DNA of 64,000 nucleotides, taken from assembly GCF_040954835.1 (NCBI RefSeq), contig NC_090696.1, positions 70,307,722-70,371,721 of the forward strand. The letters run 5' to 3'. Under the pieces are notes generated by a model. It was not told where the DNA came from and did not search any database. It saw only the letters and a list, made by a program, of their open reading frames with translations. Origin of the DNA: Lepisosteus oculatus. Its lineage: Eukaryota; Chordata; Actinopteri; Semionotiformes; Lepisosteidae. Both the position numbers and the translations under genes were made by a program. Shown here in pieces: positions 1 through 64,000 of this stretch; the stretch's first letter is position 1, and the number at the start of each line of letters is the position of its first letter.

Positions 1-1336
1 TTGTGGGAAAACCTTATGACTGCAAATAGGCTTGTGATCTTCTATGACATAAGATTCTGTTAGCAGTTGTTGCTGCTGTGGGGAAGACATTCTTCAAGTC
101 TGAATTTTATTATCCTCATCTAGCATTGCTTTACACTATCGTCCAGATCTGTTTTGAAGACATTTCTCTCTTGTTAGTTGTCAGTGGTGATGGAGGTTAT
201 GTACGGTGTACTAAAGTACCCTTAATACCCTGGTGGATTCACAAGCAATGTTCTTCAAAGCAATATTTTCAGAGCATATTCCATCAACTCACTGAGTTGT
301 GATACTGTTCCTCCATTTACAGTATACCTTTTATACATGCAAACCAACCATGTGCAAATTCATACCTTACACATTGTCCAAAGAGAACAATTTCCACAGG
401 CATTTAAAAACTTCTAATAATATTGGATCAAAAGCTCTTTCTAGAAAAAAGAGTTTCAAAGACTGTATGGGTTTTGCACTCTACACTCTTTCCACCAACA
501 TGCAGCTCTCAGTGCTGCCACAATCTACTGTAGCACAGCACAGATCAGGGACAGTTACACAAAAAAATAATTTTGTCACAGAGTGATTTACTGCTTTGAA
601 TCCTTAAACTAAGCCATATTTCTGTTCTGCTCAAATTGATCATCACTCATACAAGCCACATACTGTATGAGAACATATATCTGTCTAAATCTGTGGTTAA
701 GCTAGGCAGGTGTGGATGACATTACCAACACGTAAAATGTTCGTGCAACCTTGACAAAACGACATCTTCATATAAACAAAATATGTTTACACTGATCTTC
801 ATAAATTTAAGTAATTTACGTCTTTAAACATTGAGAGTATAACCGTCCAAAGACAAAGTGAAACAAATATCCATCTAGTTACATTATCATCTTCTGTCAA
901 GTATGCAGGTTTTTATTTTTCTGAACTTCTTATTATGGATGGGCTCACATTCCTCTGCTGTGTTAGAGATGAATGACAGTATTGTTTCTTCTCTCTCTGC
1001 TTGCGCACACAGTGGCAAATGTGGCCAAAAAATCCAGCATTTGGAATCACTATTAAGATACCTTTCGGCCTGTATTTCATGAGAGTATAGTTCTGCATGT
1101 AGACAGAATGTAGGCAGAATCTATGAATAAAAAATGTGAATAAAAAAACCCTATAGCTTGCTTTTGTTGACCAGCTCTTACTAAATATTAGGGAAGTGAA
1201 AATGTTAAACCCAAATGTTAGAAATTGTAGATTTGAAAAACCATCTTAAAGTAGGATCATGCTTTAAGACATAGACTCATAATTCACCACAACGCAATAC
1301 AGTAGTATTTGTTTTACACTGCCATTTCAGAAATCT
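1..1336. other. AT-rich intergenic, no gene seen
   Basis: No exon with recognisable protein similarity and no RNA gene is visible. Open frames here are short, lack splice context and resemble no family I know. The only notable words are TACAGTA/TACTGTA at about 318, 526, 661 and 1298, covered under the footprint finding. Confidence 0.6.
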
Positions 1337-1893
1337 GTCACGATCATAATCCCTCCTCTTATGGGCGCCCCAGCCCTTTTGTATTTTAGTAGATTACATG
1401 CACCTGCCCCCTGTTTAGTCTGCCAATATTTAAGCCTGGCTCTCCCGCGGATCCAGGAGCTTCATCACGGCATCCTGACCATCTGAGTCCGGGGCTCAGA
1501 GTGCCTGGCCTCGTTACTGTCATGGCCTGTACTCCTAGAGGGTGCTCTAGTTCAGTCCTGTTCCTAATTCCCTGTGATTATTCATGTCTTTCTGCTGTGT
1601 CTTGTTGTGTAGCCTATTTACTTCCTGTGTCTGCTCTGCTCCTGGTTCAGCACTGAGGGTACGGATGTCCTGAGACCTGCCTAGTCCCTGTCCCTTTTCT
1701 GGATTTCCCCCTTGAAATGTTTGGACTCGTTTGTCTTCGCCACTGAGTACCAGATCACCGTCATCAAGCCCCCTTGTCTTTCAACCCGTCCTGATCCTCT
1801 ACCTCTCTTCCCTGTTGTCCTTCTCCACTTACTTCCGGATTATACTGTCTGCATTGCGTCCTAAACAGCACTTCACGTTACAAAATATGAATC
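1337..1893 (+). repeat. Putative non-autonomous mobile element with TGTCACG/CGTTACA ends
   Basis: A block of clearly higher GC than its surroundings begins TGTCACGATC and ends near CACGTTACAAAA. It has a TATA-like TATTTAAG about 90 bases in and a long pyrimidine-rich plus strand, with no coding potential. The layout matches a second block at 31890-32473 (start TGTTATG, end TGTTACA, TATATAAC near the start). Fish genomes carry many short non-autonomous repeats of this look. I cannot name the family, and the exact ends are uncertain. Confidence 0.45.
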
Positions 1894-4795: not shown

Positions 4796-4993
4796 AGGTT
4801 AGCATTGATAAATAAGGGTCCACCTAGAACAAATATGGCAGACACGAGGAAACTTCAGGACCAGAACTGAGAACCAGTGCTCTACTGGCTTTTGGTCAGG
4901 AGACTGTGATGGCCAATTGAGAATGATACTACTCTTCCTTATTGACTGTAGGTTTGGAATTTGATTTTGGGATATTGTCCTGATGAAGTCCAT
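4796..4993 (-). pseudogene. Tc1/mariner transposase scrap
   Basis: On the minus strand a 64-codon open frame contains LNWPSQSPDQKPVEHW. This is close to the WPSQSPDLNPIE(H/N)LW block around the third catalytic acid of Tc1-type DDE transposases. The acid is kept, but the residues before it (DQKPVEHW) have drifted and no other catalytic blocks remain nearby. It is read as an old, mostly eroded Tc1 relic. The intact copy at 44461-46090 has the same block, so identification rests on family similarity seen within the window. Confidence 0.6.
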
Positions 4994-8900: not shown

Positions 8901-9759
8901 TACTTTTATTAAAAAATAATCGGTGCATTATTCGGATTTTACTCAAAAGAGATTTGAATCTACTTTCTTAATACTTGTTCAATAGGAAAGTTTTTTTTTT
9001 CCTAGATGTTTTTTTATTCATGCTTAGAATAAAAAAAAAAGTTGTACATCCCTTATTGTAAATTGTAATAGAGTTATATAGGCATTTACAGTACATGTAC
9101 TGTATGTAAAAATAATAATAGTAATAATCTTATTTCAATAATCTTATTAGATCGCTCTTCAACAATATTTCAGTATCTTATAACAACATGTAGTGGTAAC
9201 TGTAACTCATAATAAGTGATAAGTGAAAAACAAAATGACTTTGGAGATCTGTGGGGAATGAGGAGGAGAGCACAAATATGAGGCAAATATGTTAAATTGT
9301 TGGAAATGTGGGTGATGACTTCCAGGGAATGTGTGGAAGGCAGCAATCTGTAAATGAGTGGCTTGATTTGGAAAGAGATTAGTAAAGAAAGGTTACACAA
9401 AAGTTATTAAACTAGCCTTCCATTCATTTGCATATTTATTCCTTCTGGACTTTGGAAAAATCCACCAGATTTCCTTATCTTTAAGCATATATTTCACTTC
9501 CCTACTCTTTTTCATGTTTTCATCTTTTGTCTGTACTTTCCATCTCTCTCTTACAAAACTAGAGAAGGCTCTAGTATTGAAACATTTTCCTCTTTAACAT
9601 GGAATCTCGCTGCTACACTCTAGCTTCATTATTAACACACTACACCAAGGTTTGACAATGCTAAAAATGTCAAAGTATAGCTGTCAAATGCTCACAAGCA
9701 CATTTATTTTTCTTACATGTACAGTACCAATTTCTTTTCATCATCATTTAAGTCTGGAC
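5926..9759. other. AT-rich intergenic, nothing recognisable
   Basis: Only short, unconserved open frames. No exon-like sequence, RNA gene or named repeat was recognised. The segment contains about seven TAC(A/T)GTA words. Confidence 0.45.
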
Positions 9760-13100: not shown

Positions 13101-14040
13101 CTCACTCAGAAAGGCATCTGGTTCTCATGGAAAAGCAAAAATAGTGAATTTAGAAACTCAAAATAAAGATGAATACAAAAGGGAACATTTATCATAATAA
13201 TAAGTATATCGTGCAACACAAAATGCTTATTTATACTGCAATGTACCAAATTCTAGAGTTTCTGATGGCTCAATTATTTTAACTAAAATCACTCAAAATA
13301 AAAGGCTTATTAAATACTACATACTGTACATGCATTGCTTTTAAATGTTTTGCTTTACTTACTGCTGCTCCTAGCAGCTAGTAATTAAGCTTCAATATAA
13401 CAAAGTTCTGAAGTGTAAAAGTCAAAGCCTTGAACAGTACGACTTTATGTTCCCTTTGATTCCTAAGATAGCAAAAGAAAAGTTCAGGAACCAGAAACAA
13501 AGATCAAAAAAAGCTTTTCCTGGCTTCAGTGTCCACAGCTTTAATCCTCAGAGCTCAACGGAAGGATATGCACAACCTCACTATTGATGTTTCAGCCTTC
13601 ATCTACTGATGAGATCAAAAGAGAGAAAATGAAGAGGTGTTCAGATATAAACAGTGGGAAAGGTTCTATTTGTACTGATACAGAGAGAGTCCTTATACCA
13701 ACTGTTCTCTCAATAAAGAATAAATATTCTGTTTTTACAGATGTGACATAAATGGCGAGATTATATTGACATTGTTTTGCACCACATCTATTTTCCACAA
13801 TTTACCAAAATATTATTTGTGTTTTACCTTGTCATTTAAATGTCCACAACAGATGTTTCCAAGAACTTCTGGAACCATAAATATTTTAAGCTATCACAGG
13901 AACTCCATGATGTGTTAAAAAACTGGTGACTATTATCTTAACATCTAAACGTGGCTCTTTATCTTTTTAACTAAATAATTGAAAAGCATCTAGAAATATA
14001 TTATTCGCAATTAACAAACCACATGAAATTGCACTACAGA
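10179..14040. other. AT-rich intergenic, nothing recognisable
   Basis: No exon, RNA gene or named repeat was recognised. Open frames of up to about 84 codons have no family resemblance. Confidence 0.45.
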
Positions 14041-14049
14041 TGCAAGTCT

Positions 14050-14443
14050 TACAGTGCCTTGGTGATTAGCAATGTAGTCCTGGGTTCAGTTCCAGATGTG
14101 GGGTACTACAGTATATGCATGAAGTTTATATGTTCACCCTGTATTTGTGTTAACTGGCTTCTGAGAAAATTGGGTCTGGTGTGGGTCTGACTGTGCTTGA
14201 ACCCGTGTTAGCCCTGCAATGGACGTCTCATGCAGGGTGTTTCCTGCTTTGCACCCATTGCTTACCACAGCACTGAAGTAAATGAAGTAGAAAATGAATG
14301 GGAAAATGTGTGTTTGTGTTTGTCTGCCCTGTAATGGACAGGCATCCTCTCAAGGGTGTACCCTGCCTTGCACCTGTTGCTTGCTGGGATAAGCACTGGC
14401 TCTCCCTGTATTGGTTAACATGGTTAGAAAATGGATGGATGGA
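14050..14443 (+). repeat. Fish SINE-type repeat with ATGGATGG tail (copy A)
   Basis: The 5' part matches copies at 18.8, 47.0 and 60.3 kb (TCCTGGGTTCAGTTCC, then GGAGTTT..ATGTTC-type sequence). The 3' part has CCCTGTAATGGACAGGCATCC..AGGGTGTACCC and ends AAAATGGATGGATGG. The 3' unit occurs twice in tandem (about 14205-14306 and 14309-14443). A 5-base insertion relative to copy B makes TACAGTA at 14107-14113. The family is very common in fish genomes. Confidence 0.75.
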
Positions 14444-17400
14444 AGTCTTCCTTACATGGAAGTAAGTCCATGAAATGATAGTCTCATTTCTAATGCATTT
14501 TTATGTGAAACTAATAGAAAAATTGTCAAAACGTATTATGTTAAATCCAAATAACCTTTACTTAAGAGCAAGTAGAGTTCAAGTTTACTTATATTTTGGT
14601 GAGAAGAACAGCAATGAACTACAAGCCAAGCATTTTAAGGGTGGTAAAATAGGAAAAGCACATGATTTAAGTTACTTTAAAATTTTAACATATAGTAGTA
14701 GATTATATAGATGTTGGTTGCAGAAAAATGATATCCTGATAGGCAAAAGATGGAAAAAGCAGAGGAAATACCACAATCCCCAATGGCATTTGCTGTAATG
14801 TAATAAATGTCATGAAAACATGCGGGGGTCACCAATGTCTAATTATGGGTATAATGACCTTGTGCGCCGACACATACTTGAAATCTGCAAGCCACAGACA
14901 GTTCACAAGCACTTGGGGTAGAGATGTCCCATGACCTGCAAGGTCTGACGATCTGTGGCTGAGGATGTTGCTGTTGAACATGATGATCCAGCACATGTGT
15001 ACTGTTCGGTTCATATTGAGCACAAAGACTCAGCCAAAACTTGACCATCATGTTCACATAGCTATGTGGATATGTGGAGATGGAAGATCGCTGTATTGGA
15101 AAATTATCTGTTTTGGTCTGTCGGGTTGTACTAAGATTTGAGGTGAACTTCTTGAAAAATGTTGTTCACATAATGTTGGGTAGTGTGACTAATCTATACA
15201 ATGAAAATTCTGCTTGTATTTGATCAGTATTAATTGGATGCCATGCTAACCTCCATGAAAGACCTTTGACTCCAAACCAATGTCATTCCACATTAGGGTT
15301 CTGTGCAAAATGATTTCCCTGGCATTGATATAAACAGTATTGGCCATCAGCATAGATCACATTAAGCTAATATTCAACACATACGCATACGCATACTGCT
15401 GTGGTTTTTTATTCAAACCATGGGATACTGGATTCAAGTTTGAATACAGTAGCTGGTTCTGTCCCTTTAAAGCTAAGTTATAGTAATAAAGCTTTGTAAA
15501 GAGCATTACCATTTATTCCTCAAGGTTACAACTGCAGATTTCCATAATATATATTACAAAAAGTACATCACAATATATTACGTAATAATTATACAATCAA
15601 TTATTTTAATTATACAGGTTCAGTATTTATGAAAATATTTTTATAAATACAGTATTAATCATCTACAATATTTAGCTAGAGTTACAAAAGTATGAAAGTA
15701 TGGAAATAACCATACAGATGGATTGTGGGGGAAAAGTCTCAGTACTTCAAGAGAAATAAAGGAGCTCAGAAAGATACCACTTAAATGAAACCTTACAATA
15801 CAGATGGAAGCAACAATAAAGCACTACAGGTAGTTTAGAAATAACAATCACCAGCATTACTGTTTAGATAGTGTGATGTAATGTATGCAGTATAGTCTCA
15901 AAGTTTGAGAACAGTGTGTACAGAGGCTGTGGGAAAAATAGATTCACTAGATTCCCTAATGTCGTTGCCCTCTTGAACATCATTCAGTAATCCTTAATGA
16001 AAATGTGTGATAGAAGTCCAGTGAAGCTTTCTTTTGCTAAAAATGCTAACAATGTTTGCATTGTTTTTAAAAAGAACAAATTTACTGTTCATGGAGAATG
16101 CTATTTTGCTCCTCATACTCCTTAAGATGTTGGCTGTTTAATGATATAAAAATTGTACTCATTTTAAAAGGTGTGAATACTTACATTTTCTATTGCACAG
16201 AAAGATTCAATTATTTTATTTGTATAGAAAATTCATATGAAGGGTGGTTAATACTTCCTAAATTTGGGCCTGGTTTATTCTGTGAATTAATATTAGTTAT
16301 TTTAAAAGTATCACAGGATTTAATTGGTGCTATTAAGAGAAGACATGCAATGGTTTTATAGTTCAACTCTGCTATAAATGTATTTATTAAAAAAACTGAT
16401 AGCTCTTATGTATTAAATAATATAAAACATATTAGCCTTTGTTCTGACTTTTTACTGAAATGTGAAATCATTTTGGCTGAGTAATTCTAAGACTTCCTGT
16501 CTTGAAAGTTCCTTGTTACACAGTTATTCATCTCTAGTCACCCACATCCTGACTTTGTATACCCAGTCTCTGTTGCATAGTGACAGTCTGCATACAATGG
16601 TTAGTATTGGTTTCCAGACTAATGGCACCAGACCAATAATGAGTCCAATTTGTTAGAGGATATGACAGGAGTATTTTTTATCTCAGGCCTGTGAAATTAT
16701 TTGCCCCAGGGGAAATAACTGGGGCATTATTCAATGAATAAATCATTGTTCACTATTTTCAATCTGTGTGATGCTAATTTTGCTCTCCTTTCTTATACAA
16801 ACCTGGTTAGCTTGTAGGTTCAGTATCAAACATTCTCCATGTCCAAGAGGTATGTTATTTCCAGTTTGTCAGTTACAGTGAGTATTTCCTAGAAAACGAC
16901 TGTTGGGCAAGGTTAGAAAAAGCCTTGAAAAAGTTGAATGTTCATTACAGAAGAAACTGGGTAATCAAACAGACATGCATTGCATCCTTATATTCTTCTA
17001 ATTGACTAACTATAAACATAAAAATATCAATAAATCATTTCATTTAAACTTTTTGATTAAAACCGCAGTAGTAAATATCTGTGTATAGATTAAATGACAG
17101 TATTTGCAACTTATTCATTAATTAGCACAACCTAAATACGTCTAAGGAACCTGAACAACAAAAAACAAAATTGAAAAGGGAAATCTGTTATACTGTACGT
17201 CTCAAGTTACCTGAGAGAGATCTATTTCTATTCAAAAGAACTCTGCTTCAATCTTTGCACACTGCTTTGTAAACATTTCAGCAGCTATGTAATGATTAAC
17301 AAAATAGATTTAATTATATTTGCTTTCCTGTGTGTGGCATTGAGAGTAATTCAGTCTTGCCTTCGGGAAAGACAATACAAATAAGCTGTTGCACTTCACA

Positions 17401-18799
17401 CCTTGCATGAGAACCTATGGTATTTAAAGGATATTAAACCAGAAGGTTGATATATCTGTCTATTAATCGAATATGACTTACAGTAGAAAACATTAGTTTA
17501 TAAAAGAATATGAAACCACACTTTCTTGAGGAAAAAGTATGTACAGTAAATTTTGAGTATGTACAGTATTCAGTGCAAGGTCATTGAATAAATCGTTTTA
17601 AAACAATGCATGTAAATGTGTTAGTAATCTATGATAATTTTTGGTTTAGAATACCTGGTATTCTCATTATTTTTATATTGAGTGCACAGCATTCTTCTTT
17701 TGTTTAAATCTTGAAAAATTTAGGTCTTAGGCATGCCAATAGCTAAGAAAACGAGATAAGGCCGCATAAACCAAATATCTTGAAATCCAGTAACAGAAAG
17801 AACTTCAAAGGGTTATAAATAACTCTGCTCATATGTCAGTCTACAAAACATTCTTTTTTCATTGGTTATGCGCATACTGGTAAAACTGTATGCCAAAGAC
17901 AAAAGGTATGTTCCCTTTAACTCAGGCAATGTTAGACTTGGTCTTCATAAGGTAAATAATATTGTAAAAACTTTGAGTGAGGAAAAATGTTCTTTTAAAG
18001 AAAAAAACCTTTAAATTTTTTTTATTAAACTGCTCGACTATTTCTATTTAGTTTCATCATTTTTTTCAGTCAATGCTTTGTCAATTATAAACTCTTAAAT
18101 TATAAGCTCTCTTCATTCTGCTTGCATCTCCTCTCTGTTTGCAAGAGTTTCCACACATACTGTAGTCCAAAGACATACAGTACTAGTAGATTGATTGACT
18201 TCTGTATGTCTACCACCTGTAATTTTATCAAAAGCCTTCTGAGCATCTAAATTTACAATATCAATATAAATATCAGTATAAATATAAATATAATTTACAT
18301 TTATCCATTATTGATATTGCTTGTTCAAAAAACATTAACAAACCGATTAGTCAAAACCTTCCATTTCTAAATCCATGTTCCCTATTCCCTAGGATATTAT
18401 TTTCAAATAGCTAATCCTCTAGTTTAGCTCTAATGAATGTACCCATAACCTTCATACATGTACTAAAAATATATATATTGGTTTATAGTTATTTGCCTCA
18501 GCTTCGTCACCCTTCTTATGGATGAGCACTAAATTCTCCAATTCATCATCACTACTTTTAACTCTGAAGAGCTTCGTAAAGATTATTTTTTTATTAATTA
18601 TCTCATGGTACAGGATGCACCATTAATTTAACCAAATGATATGGTTTGACCTTTATTGCATGCCTTTCTACATTCTGATGGATATATTAGTTTTTAACTA
18701 TTCAAGGCATTCCTAGTCCTAATGCAGTTTCTGTGCCATTTTCTAATTAAAACTGTGTAAAAACAAAAAGGTTCATTTAGATATGTAGATTCACTTAAT
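14444..18799. other. AT-rich intergenic, nothing recognisable
   Basis: No gene supported. It contains many short open frames, including 107 codons at 14475-14798, without resemblance to known proteins. Confidence 0.45.
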
Positions 18800-32879: not shown

Positions 32880-34140
32880 AAACAATGATAAAGTCAATAC
32901 TTGATGGAAGCACCTCTGACAGAAGTTACTGCTGGTAGTATTTTTGCATAGTTCTCTACGAGCTTTGCACTGCAAGATGGTGGAATTTTGTTCATTCTTC
33001 CAGCAAGATTACTCAATATCTGACAGGTTCCTTGGGGACAGTGGATGGATTGCAACTGTCAAACCTCACTATAGAATTACTGATGCTTTCAAGTCAAGAG
33101 CATGACTGCAACACTCAAGGACATTCACTCTCTTCTTTGAAGACCAATTCAGTGTGTTTTTGGCCTTGTGCTTCAGGTACTTTTCCTGTCTGCTGAAATT
33201 TGATTTTGCAACCCTGTTTTATATTCTCGTGAGAGTCAAGTAGGTTTTCCTGTAGGATTAGACTGTACTTTGTACCACCATTTTTAGCTCACTCCTGACA
33301 AGCTTCCTAGTGCCTGTCATAGCCCCAATCAAACTTAAACCCTTCTAAACAGCTTTGCAGTATACTGTATCTAATATGATATTTAAGATTCGTTTTTTAT
33401 TTTATGCCACTCATTCATATAGACCAGCTTTTTGTAAGGTTTAGGATATTGTTGGTAAATGAACAGTGAATCCCATCTCTCACATGGATCTTTGAAGATT
33501 TTTTTAAGTCACTGTTGGCTTCACAATATCATCCTAACCAGTTTTCTGCTTGTCTGACTCCTCAGGGAAAGGTGGCATAATCTAGGTTGTGCCTGGGTGG
33601 TATGATGCATACTCCACTTCTTAATATTGGATTTCACTGCACTCAAAGGGATAAGGAACATTCTCCTGATCCGTGCCTCAGGACTACTTTATACTTGACT
33701 GGTTTTGATTGCTCCTTGGCCTTCATGTTGAATCTGTCATATTGTTGTGTGAGTTGTGATTTGAGTTTTAAACTATTCTGACCAAACGTCCAGAGATAAA
33801 CACATTCATTTTAAAGTTAACTTAAAATACTTTGATTACACATACAGACCATTACACTAATTTTGTGCCTTTCAGACTATTTCTCCCCCAAAGTGATTTA
33901 GGATTGCATTACCAAAAGGGTTGAGTAGCTAGGTAATTATGAGTTTTTTAAATTTCTTTAGAAATCAAACTTATTTAGGTACTATTAGCATTTTGTAGTA
34001 GAGGTTGGAGTAGACTGTGTGGATTCTAAACATTCTGTATAGCCCTATTTAAACATGTCAATATTTCAAGCTCAGACAGCAACAAGATGTGGAAACTTTG
34101 CCTTAGGGGAAAGGGCAGTGAATACTTTTGCAAGGCACTG
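32880..34140 (-). pseudogene. Old Tc1-like transposon relic
   Basis: The right end reads GAATACTTTTGCAAGGCACTG followed by TA, matching the terminal inverted-repeat style of the young copy (CTTTCGCAAGGCACTG|TA). Upstream, plus-strand blocks such as GGAAGCACCTCTGACAGAAG, CTCAAGGACATTCACTCT and CTTGGCCTTCATGTTGAATC are eroded versions of reverse-complemented Tc1 transposase coding sequence, so the gene ran on the minus strand. No usable frame survives. The left end is not clear and the start coordinate is approximate. Confidence 0.65.
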
Positions 34141-34805
34141 TATTTACAAGCAGGCCCTTCTGAAAAATGTGTACTAAATACCAATAATGTCTTATCCTAG
34201 ACTGAACTATTCTCATTGACTAAATTCTTAACAAATAGCTTAAGATTTCTTAGCTGGAAGTGTAAGCTTTTCACATTTGTGAAAACTAGAGTGTGTTGTA
34301 TACATCTATTACTTCTGAGTATTGAGAAATTTTAGTTTTAAAAGTTTTTTTTAATAAGAAACAATAGGTTTGCACTCCCTGAAAGAATATCAAAAGATAT
34401 ACACATATTTAACCCTTACATTAAAGAAGGAATTGCTGCAGTAGAAATGTTTTAATTTGTCATTTGAGATACATGTCACTTCAGGTACAGTATAAATCGA
34501 GTTTACTACAAAACTCAATAATAAAAAATGTATTAAAAAAGAACAGACAAATCTTAATGGAGGATGTTTGGAGGTTCAATTTTAATTTTGGTCATTACAC
34601 CTTTGATTAGTGATATTGCTATGTATGGACCACCTGTTTTTTCATCTTACCAAGAAAGTCACACGTACATGTTTTTTTTTTCTTTAAGGAGTGAAAAACT
34701 ACTTCCATGTTACCATAGAGATAGGTCTGGAAAAAAAAAAGTTTTTTTTCAAAAGAAAACTTTCAAGCGAATAATTACAAAGCTTACAAGCCTGTTGCTT
34801 GTAAC
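34141..34805 (-). other. Region just 3' of tyrp1
   Basis: Probably contains the tyrp1 3' UTR. Minus-strand ATTAAA words near 34580 and 34451 could serve as poly(A) signals, but none is convincing. No coding signal. Confidence 0.35.
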
Positions 34806-38000: not shown

Positions 38001-40251
38001 AAATCACAATGTCATGGAGCTCAATGTGAACAGAAGTGTACCGATGTGCAAAGGCAATAGAGGTAGCAGAACACATAACTGTGACATGCACGCAATACTT
38101 AACTTCAATGTTACTCACTGTCAATATATTTTCAAGCTGCCACTGTTAACAGCATGCTAACATAATAGCTTCACAAAGCTAGAGACAAAGATGGAGATGC
38201 TTACTGTTACATATAGTTCCAAGAGTGTCATAGTCATCAACACTTTCACAAATAACTCTCCACTGCGAGAATACAGAGTTAGAACTGATCAGGTTTGGGT
38301 CAAAGTTACTTCTTGCTCCAAATAATTCGTCTGTGCAGATGTCACAGTTGTTTCCACCAATGGCAAAGTTCCAGTAAGGAAGAGCAAAGGACGGATCTTG
38401 AAGCATATCCTGAATTTTCAAGAAGAGTACACATCTCAATAAAGTATAACCCATTTTTCACAACTTCTCAGACTGATCTTTTGTTGTTGTTTTTTTTCTG
38501 GAAAAGGTCTGACTGGGCTAAGGTGTCAGAGCCTATCATTTTAACAATCATGAGAAAAGGAAAAGCAAATAGTTTAAGTTTAAGCTAAAAAAGACAATTT
38601 TATTCCATTTAGAACCAGCATTTTTTCTTCTATAGAAAAAAAGATAAAAGTATACCCATAACCTAATGGATTTTATTTACAGTACATAGGATTTTACAAA
38701 TTACTCAATTAAGTATGGATTTTGGCCAAATAAATAAAACAAAACAAAGTGTGGATTCACTATGCCACCTGACTAGTCAAATATTGATAACAGTATTACT
38801 ATAAAACATTTCTTTGCCCCTTTTTGAAAATATATATATTTGATTAAGGCTCCCCCCCTTTTCATATCAACACAAATATCTAAATTAAAATAAACCACTG
38901 GCTGTTAGCCATTTCTTTCTTTACACAAATCAAGCCATGCAGCTTTTCCTCACCTGCATGTCCATCTCAAGCTGTAGCAGGTGATACCTGTGCCAGGTAA
39001 GAAAGCCAGGACCCTCATGGGAAAAATCTACTCCTCCAAAACTCTGCTGTCCAGCTCCAAGGAATGTTTTGCTGACAGAATAATAGTGTGACCACACAAA
39101 AAAGTTGTATATGGTGATATTCTCAAACTGCACAGTGTTGCCATCCGGTCCAAAGATCTCCTGATAGCGTCTGGTTGCAATGACCAGGTTGGGGTGTACT
39201 GTACCCTTGGCTTGGTTTAATGCATTCACAAAAAATCTTTTTTCATCTGTGTTCATTTCCATAATATTTCTCCTAACTGCAAATAATGGAAAGGCAAGAG
39301 ATATTGTAATTACAAGACGTTCCAAAGCTTTTTAGGATTTGTTCCCTTTTCTAATTGATTTTTTACAATATGTAAGGTAAACAGTTTTTTTATCATGTTA
39401 CCTGAGTTCTGAAATTCATTTTAACTAACTTAAGAAAATCAACGATTTTATATTCCCAATAATGCTCTCTTGTATACGAAGAAGGTCTTATTTGAAATTT
39501 AAATAATTGTATAGATCTGTAATCTGTGAAATTTAAAAGGCAGAAAATGGCAAACGATTATACGAGTTAATACGATTCAACTACTGTATGAATCAATGCA
39601 GTCTACAGATATTCGTAACAGTGAAGCATGTACAGTATGGACATAAAGAACCCCATACATTAGTCGCTAAATTGCAGTAAAAGAGAAAGGGTAAAACGAA
39701 AACTTCAAAATCATTTTTTGTTAACAATCAAGTCATGACCGTTTTACTATTTAATAGCACACAGATGGCTGCAGATATTGGTCAAAAGACTTGTTGTTAT
39801 TTGAAAGATAACTTTCAAACTTTTGTTACCATTGGCAAACTCCAGAAAAGCAGAAATCAGTACTACTACAATTAATTTAGGATTTCGGAATTATCTTACC
39901 TATAGGGGTACGCTGGTCGCAGTCTATTCCGGTAAACCCATGCTTACATCGTCCGCAGTTATAACCCGAGAAGTTCCCATTGCACTGACAGCTACGATTG
40001 AAGAACCTAAGGGGCCAGCGTTCACGGTCGTCGAGTCCATCGTGTGGATACTGTGGTCCGTGTGGTCGACTGTCTGCATTTATTGCTACACACTGTCCTC
40101 GTCCTGTGCTAGACCCACAGCTGTCATTCGGTACCCCAGTTGGAGACGGACAGCACTCTCCACTGCGAAGTGTCTCTGGGGTTACACATTCTCTAGGAAA
40201 CTGGGAGCGTACAACGCCGCACAAGACAGCCAAAAACCAATACTTCCACAT
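34806..40251 (-). CDS. tyrp1: Tyrosinase-related protein 1, complete seven coding exons
   Basis: Exons on the minus strand: 40251-39900, 39276-38954, 38409-38205, 36935-36768, 36265-36086, 35600-35454, 35020-34806. They total 1590 nt, i.e. 529 aa plus TAA (human is 537). Residues 1-16 are a signal peptide ([16 protein letters not shown]), followed by a cysteine-rich EGF-like part (to about 112). Metal site A is His181, His204, His213 ([14 protein letters not shown]); metal site B is His366, His370, His393 ([20 protein letters not shown]). A single TM helix spans about 467-490. The cytoplasmic tail has the melanosome-sorting ExxxPLL motif at 501-507 and ends SVV. TYRP1 is a melanosomal membrane protein of the tyrosinase family, involved in eumelanin synthesis and tyrosinase stability; its sites bind zinc in the human protein. 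Whether this is teleost a or b copy cannot be told. Confidence 0.97.
35454..35600 (-). CDS. tyrp1: tyrp1 coding exon 6
   Basis: Acceptor TTGTTCCAG|ATGTTTC, donor TGGCCAA|GTAAGC, phase 1. Encodes [20 protein letters not shown] and the [10 protein letters not shown] block. Confidence 0.96.
36086..36265 (-). CDS. tyrp1: tyrp1 coding exon 5 (metal site B)
   Basis: Acceptor TTCAACTAG|GTTATAG, donor AGCCCTG|GTAATA, phase 1. Encodes His366, His370 and His393 and the [12 protein letters not shown] block. Confidence 0.96.
36768..36935 (-). CDS. tyrp1: tyrp1 coding exon 4
   Basis: Acceptor TTCCACAG|GCACTG, donor GTGGAAG|GTGAGT, phase 1. Encodes [20 protein letters not shown] and the [20 protein letters not shown] block. 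Confidence 0.96.
38205..38409 (-). CDS. tyrp1: tyrp1 coding exon 3
   Basis: Acceptor AAATTCAG|GATATGC, donor TAACA|GTAAGC. Encodes [19 protein letters not shown], the [19 protein letters not shown] segment and the [10 protein letters not shown] block. Confidence 0.96.
38954..39276 (-). CDS. tyrp1: tyrp1 coding exon 2 (metal site A)
   Basis: Acceptor TTATTTGCAG|TTAGGAG, donor CATGCAG|GTGAGG, leaving phase 0. Encodes residues 118-225 with His181, His204 and His213. A TACTGTA at 39197-39203 lies in native codons (GTVHP), so it is not an insertion. Confidence 0.96.
39900..40251 (-). CDS. tyrp1: tyrp1 coding exon 1
   Basis: ATG at 40251-40249 opens a signal peptide followed by [18 protein letters not shown] and the [13 protein letters not shown] and [18 protein letters not shown] blocks. 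Donor ATAG|GTAAGATA, phase 1. Just upstream of the ATG, TTACTTTTTTCGCAG|GG looks like an acceptor, implying a non-coding exon further upstream as in mammals. Confidence 0.96.
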
Positions 40252-42566: not shown

Positions 42567-42653
42567 CATATTATACAGCAGTTCAGGTGGGTAGCTGCGT
42601 CAGCATGCGTAGGGTGCAAAGGAAGAAGTAATAGGTTTATCCCATACTGAAAA

Positions 42654-42752
42654 AAATATTATATTATATTATTATATTATATTATATTTAGATTATATAT
42701 AATATATTTATATTATATTATAACATAAAGATTATATTATACAGTATATAAT
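42654..42752. repeat. AT-only low-complexity tract
   Basis: About 100 bases built of ATATT/TATAT units with partial palindromes (TATATTATATTATATT-like), able to fold back on itself. Probably an expanded simple repeat. Confidence 0.7.
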
Positions 42753-43133
42753 ATCAGGAATGCAATAGAAGAACAGAGTACACTAAGGCCCTTGTGGAGA
42801 GGAGGAATTCATCCCAATTGATCTATTGAGGTTTTCCCTGTTACAGTGAGAGAAAGACAGCATTGATTAGGAGTTTGCTAATGAGAAAACCACAAAAATA
42901 ATTTATGAATGGCAGAATTAAATGATCGTAGTTCTGCAGAAGTTTTGAATGGTCACATGGGGTTTGTATCAAAGACGTACCTTTGACTCACTGTAAGTTG
43001 GTTTTGGAAGCCTTTGGAGTATATAAATTTAGTATACAGTACAGTATGTTAATGTACTCAGTGTACAAATATAGTCTCATATTGTGTGGTTATTTGAGTC
43101 CATCAGGAATGGAATAAGCTAAATGTCCACAAT

Positions 43134-43295: not shown

Positions 43296-44460
43296 TGGAC
43301 AATTCTTTGCAGGGTTCATTCGCCACAGGTGTTTCAGTTAAAACCAATCCTAATCTTTTACAAGTCTGTCATTGAAGTTTAATGTACTGCAACACACAAT
43401 TTGCGGAGGCTGAGTGTCACTTTGCAAAGGAAAATTGGAAATTTTAGAAGGTCTCCTCACTTTATAATGCAATAGTAACTCTTATGGCTTGCTTATTGTT
43501 TTTGTGCATGCATTGTAATGCTGAGTCATATCAATCCTGATGCTATCTCTGCTGTAGATGCTGTGCGATAGAAGCTGCATATCCTGATAGCATGTGTCAT
43601 CAACCCTTCTGTGCTTTTACAAAGGTTGAAGCAATACGTGCTTGGACAATTGGGATTTTCACATTAGGATATTATAAAAAACTAAACTGGCAATTGCAAT
43701 TGAAAAAACTCTTATTACATAAACACACTGGGACGTAACATGGTTAGTACACAGATTTACTGTAAAAGTGTTGTTGTTGAAAAATATTTGAGGTTCAACA
43801 ACAGGTTTGTCAAAAGTTGTAGGAGAACTAAGAGATTTGGTGTGAAGAAGTCATTTATTTTTATGTTTCATATACAATACCCTAGGTATTAAATGCAATC
43901 TTGTTGCTGAACAAAACAATGAATTTACTGTAGTTACGTAGTTTTCAGGATTTATACTATATGGTTGTTATTCATATGATTTCATTCAGAAAAACAATTA
44001 CAAAGATTTTGTTTAGCAGACTTTTACCGACATTATCTCATGGTCAGTTAGACAGTTTTCATAAATGGATCAGAAGAATTTCTTAGCCTATTATATTGAT
44101 TTCTAGGAATTTCTACACCATTCTAGAGCTAGAATGGTCTTTGGATGTTAAAGATTACATTGCAATGAATAACATAACAAGCTTCTCTTTTGTAGTCTCA
44201 ATTTTATTTTCTTTTAACCTCACGTTCTCTTTTCCCTAGAGGCAATTCTGGAATGACAAGTCTGCCAGATCTCTGAAACTGATATGCTAAAATGGATTAT
44301 TGCTTGACAATTTTATATTTTTCTTGAAAAACACAAGGAAATAATGTATTGTACATGCATACATGGATATACAATATAATAAAACATTCTGAAGATGAGA
44401 AAATGCTGAAAATGCTAATTTAATGTAATAAAACATGTCTTACTAACAATAAAATAATTA
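43296..44460. other. AT-rich intergenic
   Basis: No gene or named repeat recognised up to the Tc1 insertion; a TA at 44459-44460 is the Tc1 target. Confidence 0.45.
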
Positions 44461-46090
44461 CAGTGCCTTGCGAAAGTATTCGGCCCCCTTGAACTTTTCA
44501 ACCTTTTGCCACATTTCAGGCTTCAAACATAAAGATATACATTTTTTATTTTATGTGAAGAATCACCAACAAGTGGGACACAATTGTGAAATGGAACGAA
44601 ATCTATTGGATTTTTGAAACTTTTTTAACTAATAAAAAAATGAAAAGTGGGGCGTGCAAAATTATTCGGCCCCCTTGCGTTAATACTTTGTAGAGCCACC
44701 TTTTGCTGCGATTACAGCTGCAAGTCGCTTGGGGTATGTCTCTATCAGTTTTGCACATCGAGAGACTGAAATTCTTGCCCATTCTTCTTTGCAAAACAGC
44801 TCGAGCTCAGTGAGGTTGGATGGAGAGCGTTTGTGAACAGCAGTTTTCAGCTCTTTCCACAGATTCTCGATTGGATTCAGGTCTGGACTTTGACTTGGCC
44901 ATTCAAACACCTGGATACGTTTATTTGTGAACCATTCCTTTGTAGATTTTGCTGTATGTTTGGGATCATTGTCTTGTTGGAAGATAAATCTCCATCCCAG
45001 TTTCAGGTCTTTTGCAGACTCCAACAGGTTTTCATCCAGAATGGTCCTGTATTTGGCTGCATCCATCTTCCCCTCAATTTTAACCATCTTCCCTGTCCCT
45101 GCTGAAGAAAAGCAGGCCCAAACCATGATGCTGCCACCACCATGTTTGACAGTGGGGATGGTGTGATGAGGGTGATGAGCTGTGTTGCTTTTACGCCAAA
45201 CATATCGTTTTGCATTGTGGACAAAAAGTTCGATTTTGGTTTCATCTGACCAGAGCACCTTCTTCCACATGTTTGGGGTGTCTCCCAGGTGGCTTGTGGC
45301 AAACTTTAGACGAGACTTTTTATGGATATCTTTGAGAAATGGCTTTCTTCTTGCCACTCTTCCATAAAGGCCAGATTTGTGCAGTGTAAGACTGATTGTT
45401 GTCCTATGGACAGACTCTCCCACCTCAGCTGTAGTTCTCTGCAGTTCATCCAGAGTGATCATGGGCCTCTTGGCTGCATCTCTGATCAGTCTTCTCCTTG
45501 TCTGAGCTGAAAGTTTAGAGGGACGGCCAGGTCATGGTAGATTTGCAGTGGTCTGATACTCCTTCCATTTCAAGATGATCGCTTGCACAGTGCTCCTTGG
45601 GATGTTTGAAGCTTGGGAAATCTTTTTGTATCCAAATCCGGCTTTAAACTTCTCCACAACAGTATTACGGACCTGCCTGGTGTGTTCCTTGGTCTTCATG
45701 ATGCTCTCTGCGCTTTCAACAGAACCTTGAGACTATCACAGAGCAGGTGCATTTATACAGAGACTTGATTACACACAGGTGGATTCTATTTATCACCATC
45801 AGTCATTTAGGACAACATTGGATCATTCAGAGATCCTCGCTGAACTTCTGGAGTGAGTTTGCTGCACTGAAAGTAAAGGGGCCGAATAATTTTGCACGCC
45901 CCACTTTTCATTTTTTTATTAGTTAAAAAAGTTTCAAAAATCCAATAGATTTCGTTCCACTTCACAATTGTGTCCCACTTGTTGGTGATTCTTCACATAA
46001 AATAAAAAATTTATATCTTTATGTTTGAAGCCTGAAATGTGGCAAAAGGTTGAAAAGTTCAAGGGGGCCGAATACTTTCGCAAGGCACTG
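44461..46090 (-). mobile_element. Tc1-like transposon, near intact
   Basis: 1630 bp flanked by TA on both sides (44459-44460, 46091-46092). Ends are CAGTGCCTTGCGAAAGTATT and its complement. Terminal inverted repeats are about 215 bp (44461-44675, 45876-46090) and I find about three mismatches, so the insertion is young. An internal copy of the terminal motif (ATTATTCGGCCCC) at the inner end of each repeat gives the IR/DR arrangement. The transposase lies on the minus strand. Confidence 0.95.
44680..45699 (-). pseudogene. Tc1 transposase with one premature stop
   Basis: The frame from ATG at 45699 to TAA at 44680 is 340 codons, the usual Tc1 size, with a single internal TGA at 45534-45532 (codon 56). 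The N-terminal HTH region (residues about 1-55, KISQASNIPRSTVQAIILKW) lies before the stop, at the join to a second HTH segment (GRPSKLSAQTRRRLIRD). The DDE catalytic core follows: LWSDETK (first D), FQQDNDPKHT (second D), and SPDLNPIENLWKELK (third acid E). The stop is a probable CGA-to-TGA change at an Arg common in this family. The open part from codon 80 alone (260 aa) would lack the DNA-binding head. Confidence 0.92.
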
Positions 46091-46092
46091 TA

Positions 46093-52325: not shown

Positions 52326-55244
52326 TTTTATATTATCCTCTGAATGATGTTCTTACTTGATATGTCTTAGGGAAGTTAAGTGCTGGAAGACCTTCCAACT
52401 GCTATCAGTGAAGAGAAGATCTGTTGTGTTACAGTATTTAAAAATGCAATCTGACCCCATGTTTAGAGTTATCCCTCAGTGTACTGGTGATTTTCTAAAT
52501 TGGAAAAGTCACAGATTGCTGTGAAATACTTAACCTAGTATGAGAATTTAAGTAGAACTTCTCTGGCATGTCACAGACACACTTTAAACCTTAATATAGC
52601 AATGACAATTGATTTGTAACCATGTCAGAAATATATGATCAGTGGTAATGAAAAAAATAATGAAAGGTAGATCTTCTTTCTTTTAATTGAATAATTAAAA
52701 TATTTGAGTCAAATATCTTAACATCTGTGCTGTTATTTTTTGGTAATAATCTCAGTACATATCTGGTATAGTGATTAAAATACATTTTGCCTTATATCAT
52801 TTTTATCATTGTAGTTTAAACAATTTAATGTAAGTCTGCAAAACAAGGCCATATAATTTTGCCTGTAACATCAGATTAATATTTTTCTAATTAAGATAAA
52901 TTCAAACCACATTTCACAAATCGTATAACACCAACTCAGTTTCAGTTTCAGGCACTACACTACTTAACTCTACACTTTTGTTCTTTTTCTTACTGTCATA
53001 TTAACAAATTGTCCTGACAAACTTTGCCATACAGAGAATTGGCTTATAACAATTGTATTGTAATTTGTAGAAAAAAATAAAATTGCTCAAGCCAGATGAC
53101 TATAAATATAATAAAAAGCTAGGTCACTAATATGACTTAACCTACATTAATTAAAAAGTGAAAGGAGGCAGCAACATGGAACTATTCTTTTGAAGGACCT
53201 TTTTTGGACATTGTAAACAAATCTTATTTCATTTCACTTAGATCTCTGTTAAATAGTCAGTCAGGCACTTTCAGCTGTATTCACTGAATTTGCATGTTAT
53301 GTTTGGAGGAGAAGTGGTTTATCTTCTTGTTCACTGGCATAGTTCGCCACATTAACACACCTAGAAATTTGGATAGGTTGGTATATTTGTTTAATTTTGT
53401 TTAAGGATGGTTTTAAAGTCAAGTGAGAAAGATTACATACATTACGTATTCACCATTACAGAATTTTGCAGGAAGCAAAACATTAAACAAAATCTGAAAC
53501 AACTAACTTAAAAATCATGAAAATGACTTAGGTGTTGTCACATCATTTCAATTTTGTAGACAGCACAGAGAAGAAATACAATGACAAATATAGCATTAAA
53601 ATGTGTAGTTAAAAGCAATGGATATTCTGTTAAAAATATTCATTATGATTTAGAATTGTTATAGACTTTTGCTACTGTGGAATCAGACCAGAAGCAGCAA
53701 CAAGATAGACCCCTGTGCTTATTAGAATGTCCTAAAGGGACAGGCTAATAAATCACAGACAAAACTATAAGGGGACTTGATTCAAGTATTCTGAATCAAA
53801 GCTTTAACAGAGTCAACTCAATGGATTTCTGACTCAACGGAGAAAAAAAAAACAGACACAGTCGAAACAATGCAAGTTGCATATAATAATCATCTTTCAT
53901 ATTTTTATGATATGCATTACACCTACTGTAGTGGTTGGATTGGGCAACAGCTTTGGTGTTTTGTTATTGGTGTTCAACTGGGCACTTTGATTCATGCAGT
54001 CATTTTTTTATCTAGAGGTTCAGTTTTCTGCTCAGAAAGTGTCGAAGTTTTGCAGCATTATGTTAATTTGGTATGGTTTAATCATTATATTTTATGTTCT
54101 TATATTAGTAGACATAAAAAACTAGATCAGCACCATTTACTGTGCATGATGTTCCCCTTGGTATAATGATCATCTTTGCTCAATGAAGTCATGGATGTAC
54201 TGTAAGCTTACTGTAGATGGAGTGACACTGGCCTCAAGCAACATCAGCAGTCCTACAGAAATGTATTGACTCTCACAAGATCAGCTTGTGTTCAGAAGCT
54301 AATAGAAGAAGGAAAGAGTAATCTTAGAACCATTTTTTTTTCACTTAAACTTATATATAAGAGCAACACCGTAGAAGAGTCTACAGTCCAGTGCAATAGT
54401 TTTTCAATCTAAAATTGATCATTTCTGGAATCGTTTTACAGAATTGTATTCCTTTTCTAAGCATACTTTATGCACTCTCTAGCTTACAGCATCTCAACTT
54501 ACATCTCACCTTGTCTCCTCATTGGCTATATGAAATAATCACTAAAATAAAAATAAACCAGTCTGGGTTTTCAGTGCTTAGTACTGTAGCAGCTCTGTAG
54601 TATCTTAGAATAGGTGTTAGAAAATAAAATGATCAAAATGGTTGTTGTTCCTGCTCTACAAAGCTGGTCACATACTGTATGGCATATGACCCCACAAGGG
54701 TCTGTTCTTGATCCACTTCTAGCTATGACATTAGTTTTTGTGTTGCTGATACCTATATTGATATTTGCATGAAACCAGAAGTTAATTAGATGGCTTGTCA
54801 CACTATTAGCTCTCCCCATTTATGGACCAATTTTATACAATCCCCTCACCATGGTAATACATGGTAATAGAGAAAAATGAATTTGCCAGAAAAATAAAAA
54901 ATGAAAAATAACTCTGTAGGTAAAATATTCTAATTTACACATTGTAAGTAAATAAGATGTACTGCAATTGGTAATTTAATTAAAAACCCAACATACTTTA
55001 CAATAGTATAAGAGGACATTAATTGTTGGCCTCAGCAGGCAATACAAGGTTTTCAGTCACGTGACTACTCACTTAGTATTCCATATTATTATTGTTGGTA
55101 GGATTGCTCTGTTATCTGCTGCCTTAGGTTTTTAGCCCATCCTTGTTGTGACATGAGTTTGGAAAAGAAGCAGGCTTTGGTTAATACTTTGGTTTTGGAA
55201 ATACTTTGTGTTTTTTTGTAAGTTTGCCCTGTCGTGAAAGGTTA
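52326..55244. other. AT-rich intergenic, no gene seen
   Basis: Upstream of the unnamed membrane-protein gene and presumably holding its promoter; no clear core element was seen. No repeat family recognised. Confidence 0.42.
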
Positions 55245-59760: not shown

Positions 59761-60293
59761 CCATTAATCATGGTAGCGGTTTGCTACTTAAGGAAATATG
59801 ATGAGATACAGTGGAATAAAAAACAACAACTTATTTTTAAATGTTTGTAGGGTGCAATATTTTTATGTTTCATTAATGTAGATTAATTAAGTTGAGTGTT
59901 TCCCGAGTGATTCAACTAGTAAAAGCACTTTCAGAAAACAGACTGATTCCTGTTATCGAGACATTACCAGATTAAGCCCATGCCCAGGGTTTCCTCGAGT
60001 GACAGCACTCTCTTGGCCTTAGTGGAAATAAAAGTGCTTCCATTCTCCCTAACTGTGATCTCGTAGTTTTATTAGTAAGAAGTACCACTACTTCTTTCAG
60101 TGCTAACTCCTTTATGTTCTCAGCATGTCAAATGAAGCATAATTTACATTGTAACAAGAAACGTTTTGTTTCATTCAAATGTTGAGTAGCTGTGTAGCTG
60201 TAAATGTACAGTCATGTAAACTAGAGTTAATTTATCATGTGTATTCTTTATGTATATATAATGGTTTATATATATTGCCAGATATATCATATC
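59761..60293. other. Intergenic
   Basis: No gene or named repeat recognised. Confidence 0.4.
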
Positions 60294-60551
60294 ATTGTTG
60301 GGCACAGTAGTTAGCATTGCTGACTTGCAGCTCTGAAGCCCTGGGATCAATTCTGGACCTGGTGTGCCATCTGGGTTCTAGGAAGATTGGCTCTGGTGTG
60401 AGTCTCCTTGTGTTTGTGTCTATGTGTGCCTTAAGATGGACTGGCATCCCCTCCAGGGTGAGACCTGTCTTGCACCCATAGATTGACAAGACAGGCTCTG
60501 GATCCCCTGTGACCCTGTGGATAAAGCATTTGAAAATGAATAGATGGATAG
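60294..60551 (+). repeat. ATGGATGG-type fish repeat (copy E)
   Basis: GGGCACAGTAGTTAGCATTG, CCCTGGGATCAATTCTGG, GGCTCTGGTGTGAGTCTC and GATGGACTGGCATCCCCTCC blocks, ending GAAAATGAATAGATGGATAG, match the full-length family in plus orientation. Confidence 0.75.
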
Positions 60552-63500
60552 TTTTAATTTTCCAGCTTTAGAAACCCAAATGAGAACCTTTAGCCTTTAG
60601 TGATAATGATATAGATTTTTTTTTTAATATTTGCATTTTAGAAGTTACTTTGGATGGGAGAACCTTTTGGAATCAAGCATTATACATATATGTATCTATA
60701 ATATCATGGTAATCTTTGTATTTTGATCAATTATGTATGTGACTAATCTAAATGTAAAATATTTGGTATTCAATCTCAATAAATCTTGTTAGTACAAAGA
60801 AGTGATATTCTTGCAGTTCATTTTGCACAATTTGTGTTATAATTTGTGTTTCCCTCACTTTCCAGTTGCTACAAAGATTGAATGGGACTAGGAACCTTAA
60901 ATACCCTATCCCATCAAATACCACAAAAATTCCTCGTAATGATTTAAGTTGTTCCAACACTGTTTTCACATTCCATAAGAGATGAAAACCATAAAAATGT
61001 CTTTTACATTTCATGGTTTCACGATAACATATTCCAGAGAATGAACATAATACAGCCATGAATGGCAGGTCTTATTCAAAAACAGTGAACTGCTGCCCAG
61101 GTTATAAGTTATTTTCCCCTGAGGTATAAACAGTAGATGTACTGTATAATTCATGAATGTACTAAAAAACATATGTAAGAATCTGAATGAATGAATTTAA
61201 ATACAGGTTTTAGTTGCCCTCATTAATAAACAATAATAGTTAGAGTTAGTTGTAGTACTACCTAAAAAAGAGGATAACAGAATTACATATACATTTCTTG
61301 TAAAACTAATATTATGCTGTGTGAAGCCACCAAGACTAAAATGGAATGCTATATTGTATAAAAATGTACCATCTTATACTTGACAGTTTAAGGAAAACGG
61401 AATACAACTGGTTTTATAGAACGATACATTAGAATACTAAAGATGTGTCATAAATAAGCAAAAAACTATTTGAAAGTCAGGCAGCAATTTTAAAACTGGG
61501 CCAGACACCAAAATCTTTGTGTGAACTGCCTGGCAGCATGGGATTTATAGAAGTAATTACAGTAATCACATGGAAAGAAGAGGCTGATAGAGAAAAGCTG
61601 CCTCAGTACAGAAGTTAGTCATATGAACAGTTCATTGCTTGTGCTAATAGATCCCTCAGTGGGTTTTTCCAAAGGCAAGGATTAACATTAAGCTACGGTC
61701 ACATCTACTCACATGATACTTTGCAGGGTTTATTCAAGATAAAATGTTTAGAAAGTGCAGGTAGGGTATCACATTCATCCATTCATGTGTACAGTATGTA
61801 CCGAATGAGTCACTAGTTTTTTTTGTTTTGTTTGACGTAACTACTGGTAGACTGAAAAAAATGTATCAGTTAGAAAGAAATAGCAAGTCTGATTAGATAT
61901 CATGGTTTCTGTTGTTTATAAATTATAGTTTTATGCCATAATAATATGATGTCCATATGATGAATGGACAGCATCCTCTTCAGAACAGCAGAACTCAGTT
62001 TGTAGTTGTAAATATGCAGTATGTGCTTGATCACCTCCTAAAACACAAGCTGTTCATATGCTGTATAAAAAATCCTTTAAATCCTTAGTTTATCTTAATT
62101 TCTACGTCAATGCACCTGTATTCCTGCACTTTTTTACAATCATCCCTCACACCACTTGTTTTTATGAAATAAAGAATAAATCCAAGTCCTAAAATTAATA
62201 AAAATATGTGTTTTAAAGTTCAGATCTTCCCATCCAACAGAGACTTTCAAGACCTTCAAACTCAATATCACGGACATGAACAGAGCACCTCCAACTCCAT
62301 AACGCAGATTAATTCATGGGGAAAACTGCGAGAGAAAACACTTTCCTAGTTAAACAGATTGTAAAAATTAATTTTAACAAGCAAATGTCAACCTCCCTCA
62401 GAGCATTTGGACAATCATCAACAGGATATGTACTGGACACATCTGATGTGGTCAACTGATGAACAAACAGCACGTCAAAATTTCATCTGGTGGTGACTGT
62501 GGGTATCCTGGCCAAACCATATTGTGCATAATTACATTTTGCAGACAACGATTTTGATGGTGGCATCCAGAAGTTACATTTTCTCTCCATCAGGTCACTA
62601 ATCTAAAATTGTGACTTCAAGTTTATTCTCCTAAAGCTATAAGAAAAAATAATTTAAATTCAGTTATGAATTGTGAAACAAAAACTCAGTTGGAATCCAA
62701 AATCTGCTGCCGCTGCATCTCTTGCAAACACAAAGTAATAACAAAAGCTTCTCAGAGCACAAACAGGCTGCATATTGATCTCAGTTGTATTAAAGGACAG
62801 CTATGATGGTTTCTAAAAATATGGTTTTGTATGTTCCCAGTGCTACTAGGAGCGTATGATCCACTGCAATTTTGTTCTTTTCATTTTTTTTATTAGCAGT
62901 TTTGAACATTTAAAACTTTAACCTGCTCCACAAAATGTGCACATAGACAATACATGAGTGCTGAATTCTAACTTCAGAAAGAGCCATTTGATCAAACAGC
63001 ACAGAGGGGAAAAACTACAATGCAAGAGCACATAATGTACCATTTGTATTGCAACTCAGGTTGTCACTTTTAACTCCACAGATCAATTAGCTACCAACTT
63101 GGCTAAACCAAAAATGAATAAAGAAGTCCACTGGGTTGACTTAATTATTGCCTTTGAGATCTTTTAATACTTGAATCTGTTCCGCTAATTGTTCTCTGTT
63201 GAGGACTAAAAATGTTCAATTCTTTTTTGTCAGTGTATGTCATTCCTTTAAGCCTGGCAATATATCAAGTTGCTCTTCTCTGGACTAATTCCAGAAAAGA
63301 AATATATTTTTTCATTTGTGGTGCCTAATATTACACAATGTTCTAAATTTCCAGTTACATTTTACAGATGTCAGTGTCAATGCAAAACCGAACAAGAAAA
63401 TTAGCAAAATAAGAAAAAAAATATTTCCCTTAGAGCTGAGAGCTACTAAAATCCCTTCATAACAAAAGGCTCCATTATATGAACACATTGTCTTTACAAT

Positions 63501-64000
63501 GTCTCTTCAGCAAACAGGTTATATTCGATGTGGGAGCTACAATACAACAGGGTTAATAGAGGGACAAAGCAACATATTTCCATACTTTAAAACTTTATAC
63601 AGACAATAGCTTCTTATAGTCTTGCCTGATCATGTAACAGGTCAAAGATATACTGTACATACCTTATATTTCTTATAATTCAGTATTAATATTGTGTTCC
63701 GAAAAGTCATGTGGTCATATTATGATGCATTTCTGTACCTCCAGCATTATTTCTACTATTCAAAACTGCATTATTGAAATCTACTCCAAATGTTTTATTT
63801 ATTTACTAACTACTAAGCATGTACTGTGTTTATATACAGTATATATGTGCCCTTTAAAGTACAGCATAAAGGCATATTAGTAAAGTAGTAAATCTGTTAG
63901 CTGTTTACAGCTCAAGGTTGGGGTTGCTACATGTACCTTTTAGCGTGTCCACATGCTGTTTTGAGCATGCACCAATACAAGCATGGTGGCAGTACAAGGC
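60552..64000. other. AT-rich intergenic to window end
   Basis: No exon, RNA gene or recognised repeat; open frames are short and unconserved in appearance. Confidence 0.42.

Follow-up and report, generated by a model that had tools for sequence, protein, structure and literature searches.

TACWGTA heptamers in a 64-kb window of the Lepisosteus oculatus genome: a candidate dense record of Tc1-type transposon excision

The question raised by the 64,000-base stretch of the Lepisosteus oculatus (gar) genome considered here (contig NC_090696.1, positions 70,307,722 to 70,371,721 of the forward strand; hereafter the window) is why a single seven-base word, TACWGTA (W being A or T), recurs in it far more often than chance would have it. 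A first-pass annotation, made from the letters of the window, had counted 105 of these words on the plus strand, 57 of them TACAGTA and 48 TACTGTA, and had read most of the excess as footprints of the excision of Tc1-type transposons. Our recount was exact, and the numbers in successive 10-kb blocks (19, 14, 17, 11, 22, 17 and, in the shorter last block, 5) were also identical. The footprint reading was supported, mostly by indirect tests, and we put at about 0.86 the probability that most of the excess TACWGTA words are excision scars of CAG-ended Tc1-type elements. It rests on the excess of the word, its specificity, flanks that carry a target preference, derivatives that are probably products of decay and a resident CAG-ended element.

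The route to such a scar would begin with the insertion of a Tc1/Sleeping Beauty-type element with CAG...CTG ends, either autonomous or a short derivative, at a TA, which would be duplicated. The transposase would later cut three bases inside each end, with what we take to be a 3-base stagger in the gar, and the two flanks, each a TA with a 3-base overhang, would be rejoined by end joining. The central mismatch would then be resolved either way, to TA-CAG-TA or to TA-CTG-TA, with a net gain of 5 base pairs (bp). The excisions are presumed to have taken place in the germline and then to have been fixed, and the element families responsible are likewise presumed. Sleeping Beauty has CAG ends, and the scar chemistry of TACWGTA is already known. 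The available texts of PMC3432063, PMC4378557 and PMC7827188 give TAC[A/T]GTA scars and 3-nucleotide (nt) overhangs for Sleeping Beauty, and that of PMC3432063 places the word at excision sites in HeLa cells. The mechanism set out in the available text of PMC7827188 comprises a first nick three nucleotides inside the element, 3-nt 3' overhangs and end-joining scars identical to the overhangs.

Excess and specificity of the heptamer

The window has a base composition of 65% A+T, and TACWGTA occurs in it at 1.64 per kb. The expectation from a first-order Markov model was 11.8 words against the 105 observed, and across 100 dinucleotide-preserving shuffles the word occurred 11.95 times on average (standard deviation 3.6) and never more than 22 times. 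A second-order model gave 18.6, a figure that is contaminated because the TACWGTA excess itself enters that model. TACWGTA is present at about nine times the chance level in the window, and the excess amounts to ~93 words. As to the comparison with heptamers of equal composition proposed in the first-pass annotation, no equal enrichment was found within the window: with the strands merged, TACAGTA/TACTGTA stood at the top of the 1344 classes with two G/C bases and second among all heptamer classes. The runners-up among the two-G/C classes, ACTGTAT (68) and ACAGTAT (63), overlap TACWGTA itself. Base composition was rejected as the main cause of the excess via these Markov-model and word-class comparisons. 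Separately, the TACATTA/TAATGTA class was also observed to exceed its first-order expectation (43 versus 20.5, z 5).

The excess is narrow with respect to both the centre of the word and its spacing. Among the 32 strand-merged TA-NNN-TA classes, the class with CAG/CTG at the centre had a z of 27, followed by TAATATA with a z of 5.4, and the C/G-centred counterpart class was at chance (1 versus 1.2 expected). When the spacing between TAC and GTA was varied, the one-base form TAC-N-GTA was found 106 times versus 13.0 expected, while spacings of 0, 3 and 4 bases were at chance or lower (4, 12 and 9 versus 3.3, 13.1 and 13.1). The alternative scar forms TACATA, TACATGTA, TACGTA and similar showed little or no excess in the window. 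The positions of TACWGTA were compatible with a uniform spread (Kolmogorov-Smirnov P 0.80; variance/mean of 0.89 in 2-kb bins), and the split between the two orientations, previously described as near-equal, was even (P 0.44).

Some heptamers lie in close or overlapping pairs, a part of them inverted (9087-9104, 54198-54215, 18158-18182 and 43035-43046), and the overall spacing is unclustered. The last of these pairs, the double word TACAGTACAGTA, could have arisen if another element inserted at the TA of a scar already present.

Flanking bases and decay products

A preference for particular flanking bases was evident when outward positions were read from both TAs of each heptamer, with all other TA-NNN-TA words serving as controls. 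Outward position 3 was T in 114 of the 210 half-sites, compared with 389 of 1148 around the controls (Fisher P 4e-8), position 1 was T in 99 compared with 385 (P 2e-4), and position 2 was a purine in 130 compared with 601 (P 0.013). On the plus strand, the left-hand position 3 was A at 34/57 and 30/48 sites and the right-hand position 3 was T at 28/57 and 22/48, which is weaker than on the left, and both sides exceeded the 0.33-0.34 found at all 5414 TA. At least three of the four A-A...T-T matches were present at 29 of 105 sites versus 77 of 574 (P 6e-4). The flanks of TACWGTA show the ATATATAT-like, symmetric target preference of Sleeping Beauty and Tc1. The presence of this preference around a scar is a prediction that the first-pass annotation had not made. 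The available part of PMC3271037 gives the ATATATAT context for Sleeping Beauty both in mammals and in frog, where no event of that study matches the palindrome exactly, and that of PMC7913693 gives it for the zebrafish element ZB.

The rival explanation that survives best is that the heptamers are a short palindromic functional motif, for instance one bound by a protein, or result from another word-specific mutational bias rather than from transposition. TACWGTA is indeed a highly specific word and an odd palindrome, mildly palindromic flanks could also accompany a binding motif, and the excess of spaced relatives such as TAC-N5-GTA is without explanation. Set against these points are the uniform distribution of the heptamers along the window, the agreement of their flanks with the published insertion preference of Tc1 and Sleeping Beauty, the about equal use of A and T centres with C/G centres at chance, and a length difference of ~5 bp between copies of a repeat at 14107 (see below). 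Taken with this evidence, a functional motif or a mutational bias appears improbable.

It is considerably harder to sustain the proposal that the heptamers belong to dispersed inverted-repeat elements (miniature inverted-repeat transposable elements, MITEs) as their termini, which would read TACAGTA...TACTGTA. A TA-flanked MITE with CAGTA ends would yield both words equally, and 57 and 48 were seen, but the flanks share no extended sequence: when all 105 were aligned on the heptamer, no column within three bases exceeded 0.16 bit of information, and all columns from there out to 20 bases stayed below 0.1 bit. Pairs of flanks with a common exact 10-mer were at the random level (52 versus 48.5 +/- 8.7 over 200 draws of 105 random sites), and the base preference is present on both sides of the heptamer. 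A common terminal sequence beyond the heptamer on one side was sought across the 105 flanks and was not found. Since the flanks have no common sequence, the heptamers do not represent the termini of a transposon family. A young, high-copy MITE family with TACAGTA termini was excluded as the main source by the flank information and the 10-mer sharing, and we give MITE ends in general very little credence.

If the excess words are excision scars, they would be expected to have left mutated forms of themselves, because neutral scars should mutate. Single-transition derivatives of TACWGTA numbered 118 versus 76.7 expected, a ratio of 1.54, while 293 control words with permuted letters had a ratio of 0.96 +/- 0.21 and only three of them were as high; in a smaller initial control sample, 2/120 reached the ratio of the transition derivatives. 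The mean flank score was 1.09 for the 105 intact words, 0.85 for the 118 transition derivatives and 0.67 for 434 background words, the difference between derivatives and background having a one-sided P of 0.009. Some of the transition derivatives are probably decay products of scars. The count of the derivatives and their flank score each suggest ~45 decayed scars, from which the mean transition divergence would be, very roughly, ~7% per site.

Repeat copies, resident Tc1 elements and evidence to the contrary

Direct comparison between repeat copies bears on few of the heptamers. The window has 19 distinct self-alignments (E <= 1e-3), and only two of the 105 heptamers, at 14107 and 42740, fall inside any of them, leaving 103 in none. 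Three comparisons in the window had been reported in the first-pass annotation as showing a 5-bp insertion at TA; one such case could be made out here, in a repeat resembling a short interspersed nuclear element (SINE) at 14107, with an ambiguous gap placement, and the tandem array at ~42740 gave no clean 5-bp difference. In an alignment of five SINE-like copies, the copy with 14107 had five more columns at the heptamer than the two other copies spanning the site. Compared with the copy at 18840-18910, the heptamer site was the best place for a single 5-bp deletion, with five tied placements. The annotation had also asked for a check of whether the words sit in the consensus of repeats, and at this lone dispersed-repeat site the two other covering copies are without TACAGTA. 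The length difference at 14107 would support the excision reading, as a single imperfect case.

That the heptamers were inherited with old repeat families, now present in the window as numerous decayed copies, is scarcely credible, given that the self-alignments are so few and hold only those two heptamers and that both other covering copies at 14107 lack the word, although one weak pair, the regions of 9087 and 52160, might share it (E 9e-4, one of 210 queries). The 105 junctions, with 5 bp removed or kept, gave weak matches only among the matches listed in comparisons with the window. Inherited repeat words were rejected as the main cause via the scarcity of heptamers in self-alignments.

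The excision reading calls for elements with the appropriate ends, and the Tc1 to which the first-pass annotation had ascribed CAG...CTG ends does have them (Table 1). This element has the features of a Tc1 DD34E transposon, namely a flanking TA at each end, long inverted termini and Tc1 HTH and DDE domains, with 34 residues from the second D to the E of its transposase (as counted by eye on the translation). The stop at codon 57, the remainder of the 340 codons being open, means that the transposase of this copy is not intact, which concerns its autonomy and not its family membership. In structure (TA target, long inverted repeats, HTH and DDE), the element, with its one in-frame stop, is like the vertebrate DD34E elements Sleeping Beauty and ZB. 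A 61-nt direct repeat (74%) links the outer left end of the element and 28 flanking bases to 44617-44677, a layout that we take to be that of elements with inverted repeat/direct repeat (IR/DR) ends. With a single stop between arms that are 98% alike, the copy could be read as either a recent arrival or a late survivor. An older, degraded relative is also present; its left end was not located, and a heptamer at 33363 falls between its two aligned stretches. A tblastn search of the window with the transposase identified these two copies and one marginal fragment (4862-4924, E 0.03), and such a search would miss short non-autonomous elements, at which no search was aimed. A scan of viral contigs with the transposase gave six pattern matches, none encoding a relative.

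Several observations weigh against the interpretation of the excess as excision scars. The spacings TAC-N2-GTA, TAC-N5-GTA and TAC-N6-GTA were found 21, 30 and 22 times versus ~13 each, and the heptamer lies inside only 0, 6 and 4 of those occurrences, so most of this smaller spacing excess is not explained by TACWGTA. Transversion derivatives were also in excess (208 versus 158, ratio 1.31, with 10/293 controls as high), and they have no flank signature (0.62 versus 0.67 for background); part of the neighbour-word excess must therefore have another cause. Copies could be compared at only one site in a dispersed repeat. There, when the copy at 47262-47191 was the reference, the deletion at the heptamer came second, with a score of 16.5 versus 18.0 for a deletion ~25 bases off, and both free alignment and BLAST draw a 4-bp and a 1-bp gap. 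There are two recognisable Tc1 copies against ~93 scars, a disparity that would require either highly efficient removal by excision or a large number of short elements. The scars of ZB are of zero to three bp in the available text of PMC7913693, and the canonical scar is consequently not guaranteed in every relative. Finally, the heptamer at 39197 is demonstrably no scar: the protein stretch encoded around it aligns without an indel to human TYRP1, and we attribute the word to chance.

That word is the only one of the 105 in the 2175 bases, from TYRP1 and part of LURAP1L, that tblastn with four fish proteins identified as coding. At the average density of the window ~3.6 words would have been expected there, the shortage is not significant, and the near absence from coding exons claimed in the first-pass annotation is a weaker point than it was made out to be. 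LURAP1L lies on the same strand as TYRP1. The closest matches of the hand-joined TYRP1 protein, among the matches listed, were from ray-finned fish; the top score belonged to a fused Acipenser sinensis protein, and identities were 83% to bowfin, 83% to an Albula protein, 81% to Huso and 74% to Polypterus. A 5S rRNA-like sequence in the window is possibly a 5S-derived SINE or a pseudogene.

Table 1. Coordinates of the heptamer set and of other features in the window
Feature	Position	Strand	Basis or remark
TACWGTA set, 105 words	1..64000	none	counts, models, shuffles, flank and derivative tests; ~93 excess read as scars
TACAGTA in SINE-like repeat	14107..14113	+	two other covering copies ~5 bp shorter there
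SINE-like copy holding the 14107 heptamer	14020..14460	+	self-alignment, five-copy alignment
Further SINE-like copies	within 18780-19110, 42370-42580, 47320-47010 (minus), 60280-60570		
TACAGTA in AT-rich tandem array	42740..42746	+	no clean 5-bp difference to sister unit
Overlapping double heptamer TACAGTACAGTA	43035..43046	+	sequence
TACTGTA in TYRP1 coding exon	39197..39203	+	tblastn, alignment to human TYRP1
Tc1 element including flanking TAs	44459..46092	-	ends CAGTGCC...GGCACTG; contains no heptamer
Left inverted arm, 223 nt	44459..44681	+	98% complementary to right arm; aligned arm includes TA
Right inverted arm	45870..46092	+	inverted-repeat alignment
Tc1 transposase frame, 340 codons	44683..45702	-	one in-frame stop; Pfam HTH_Tnp_Tc3_2, DDE_3 after stop
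Older degraded Tc1 relative	32893..34142	-	59-63% identity in two long stretches; right end GGCACTG then TA
TYRP1 gene	34809-40251	-	seven recognisable coding exons
LURAP1L exon	22068-22451	-	
5S rRNA-like sequence	30398-30517	-	full family model, 41.9 bits

Known footprints and the meaning of a scar record

The heptamers of the window are like the Sleeping Beauty footprint, as given in the available parts of PMC3432063 and PMC4378557, in having the same seven bases, both centres, a TA target and a ATATATAT-like context, and differ from it in that the Sleeping Beauty scars arose in cells and tumours in which transposition had been engineered, whereas here the word stands in natural genomic DNA at the density given above. 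The papers in the searched literature in which TACAGTA and TACTGTA occur together concern engineered Sleeping Beauty. In that literature, with subscription journals mostly outside it, we found no report of a genome or region enriched in TACWGTA as natural scars. The mouse genome is 2.7 Gb in size. The available text of PMC4378557 counts >300,000 such words in it, which at that size corresponds to ~0.11 per kb versus 1.64 here, and the difference is partly one of base composition. The closest evolutionary study that we met is PMC1925063, on Stowaway/Tc1-mariner footprints in introns of the Triticeae, whose available part describes, as we propose here, natural, fixed scars recognised by their sequence, at a site where gain and loss have recurred. 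Unlike the present case, it treats one intron site across species, with variable scars, and its available part gives no genome-wide count of a single word.

Cut-and-paste activity is usually reconstructed from the copies that stayed, and transposons that are now gone may also have left a record that can still be read in the genome. A dense scar record would measure the departed insertions and allow the ratio of excision to retention to be estimated, each scar event adding an insertion of ~5 bp. The apparent frequency of Sleeping Beauty remobilisation in the frog germline is ~0.2% in the available part of PMC3271037, and at such a frequency an insertion would plausibly have become a scar, in most cases, before or soon after it drifted to fixation. 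If the window is typical, there would be ~1.4 scars per kb, on the order of a million per gigabase. We consider the chances to be evenly balanced that, across the gar genome, the insertions since excised are dozens of times as numerous as the Tc1-type copies that survive; in that event, censuses of resident copies would miss most of the activity of these elements, and the heptamer, its decay products and its flank signature would together provide a record of it that could be counted and roughly dated.

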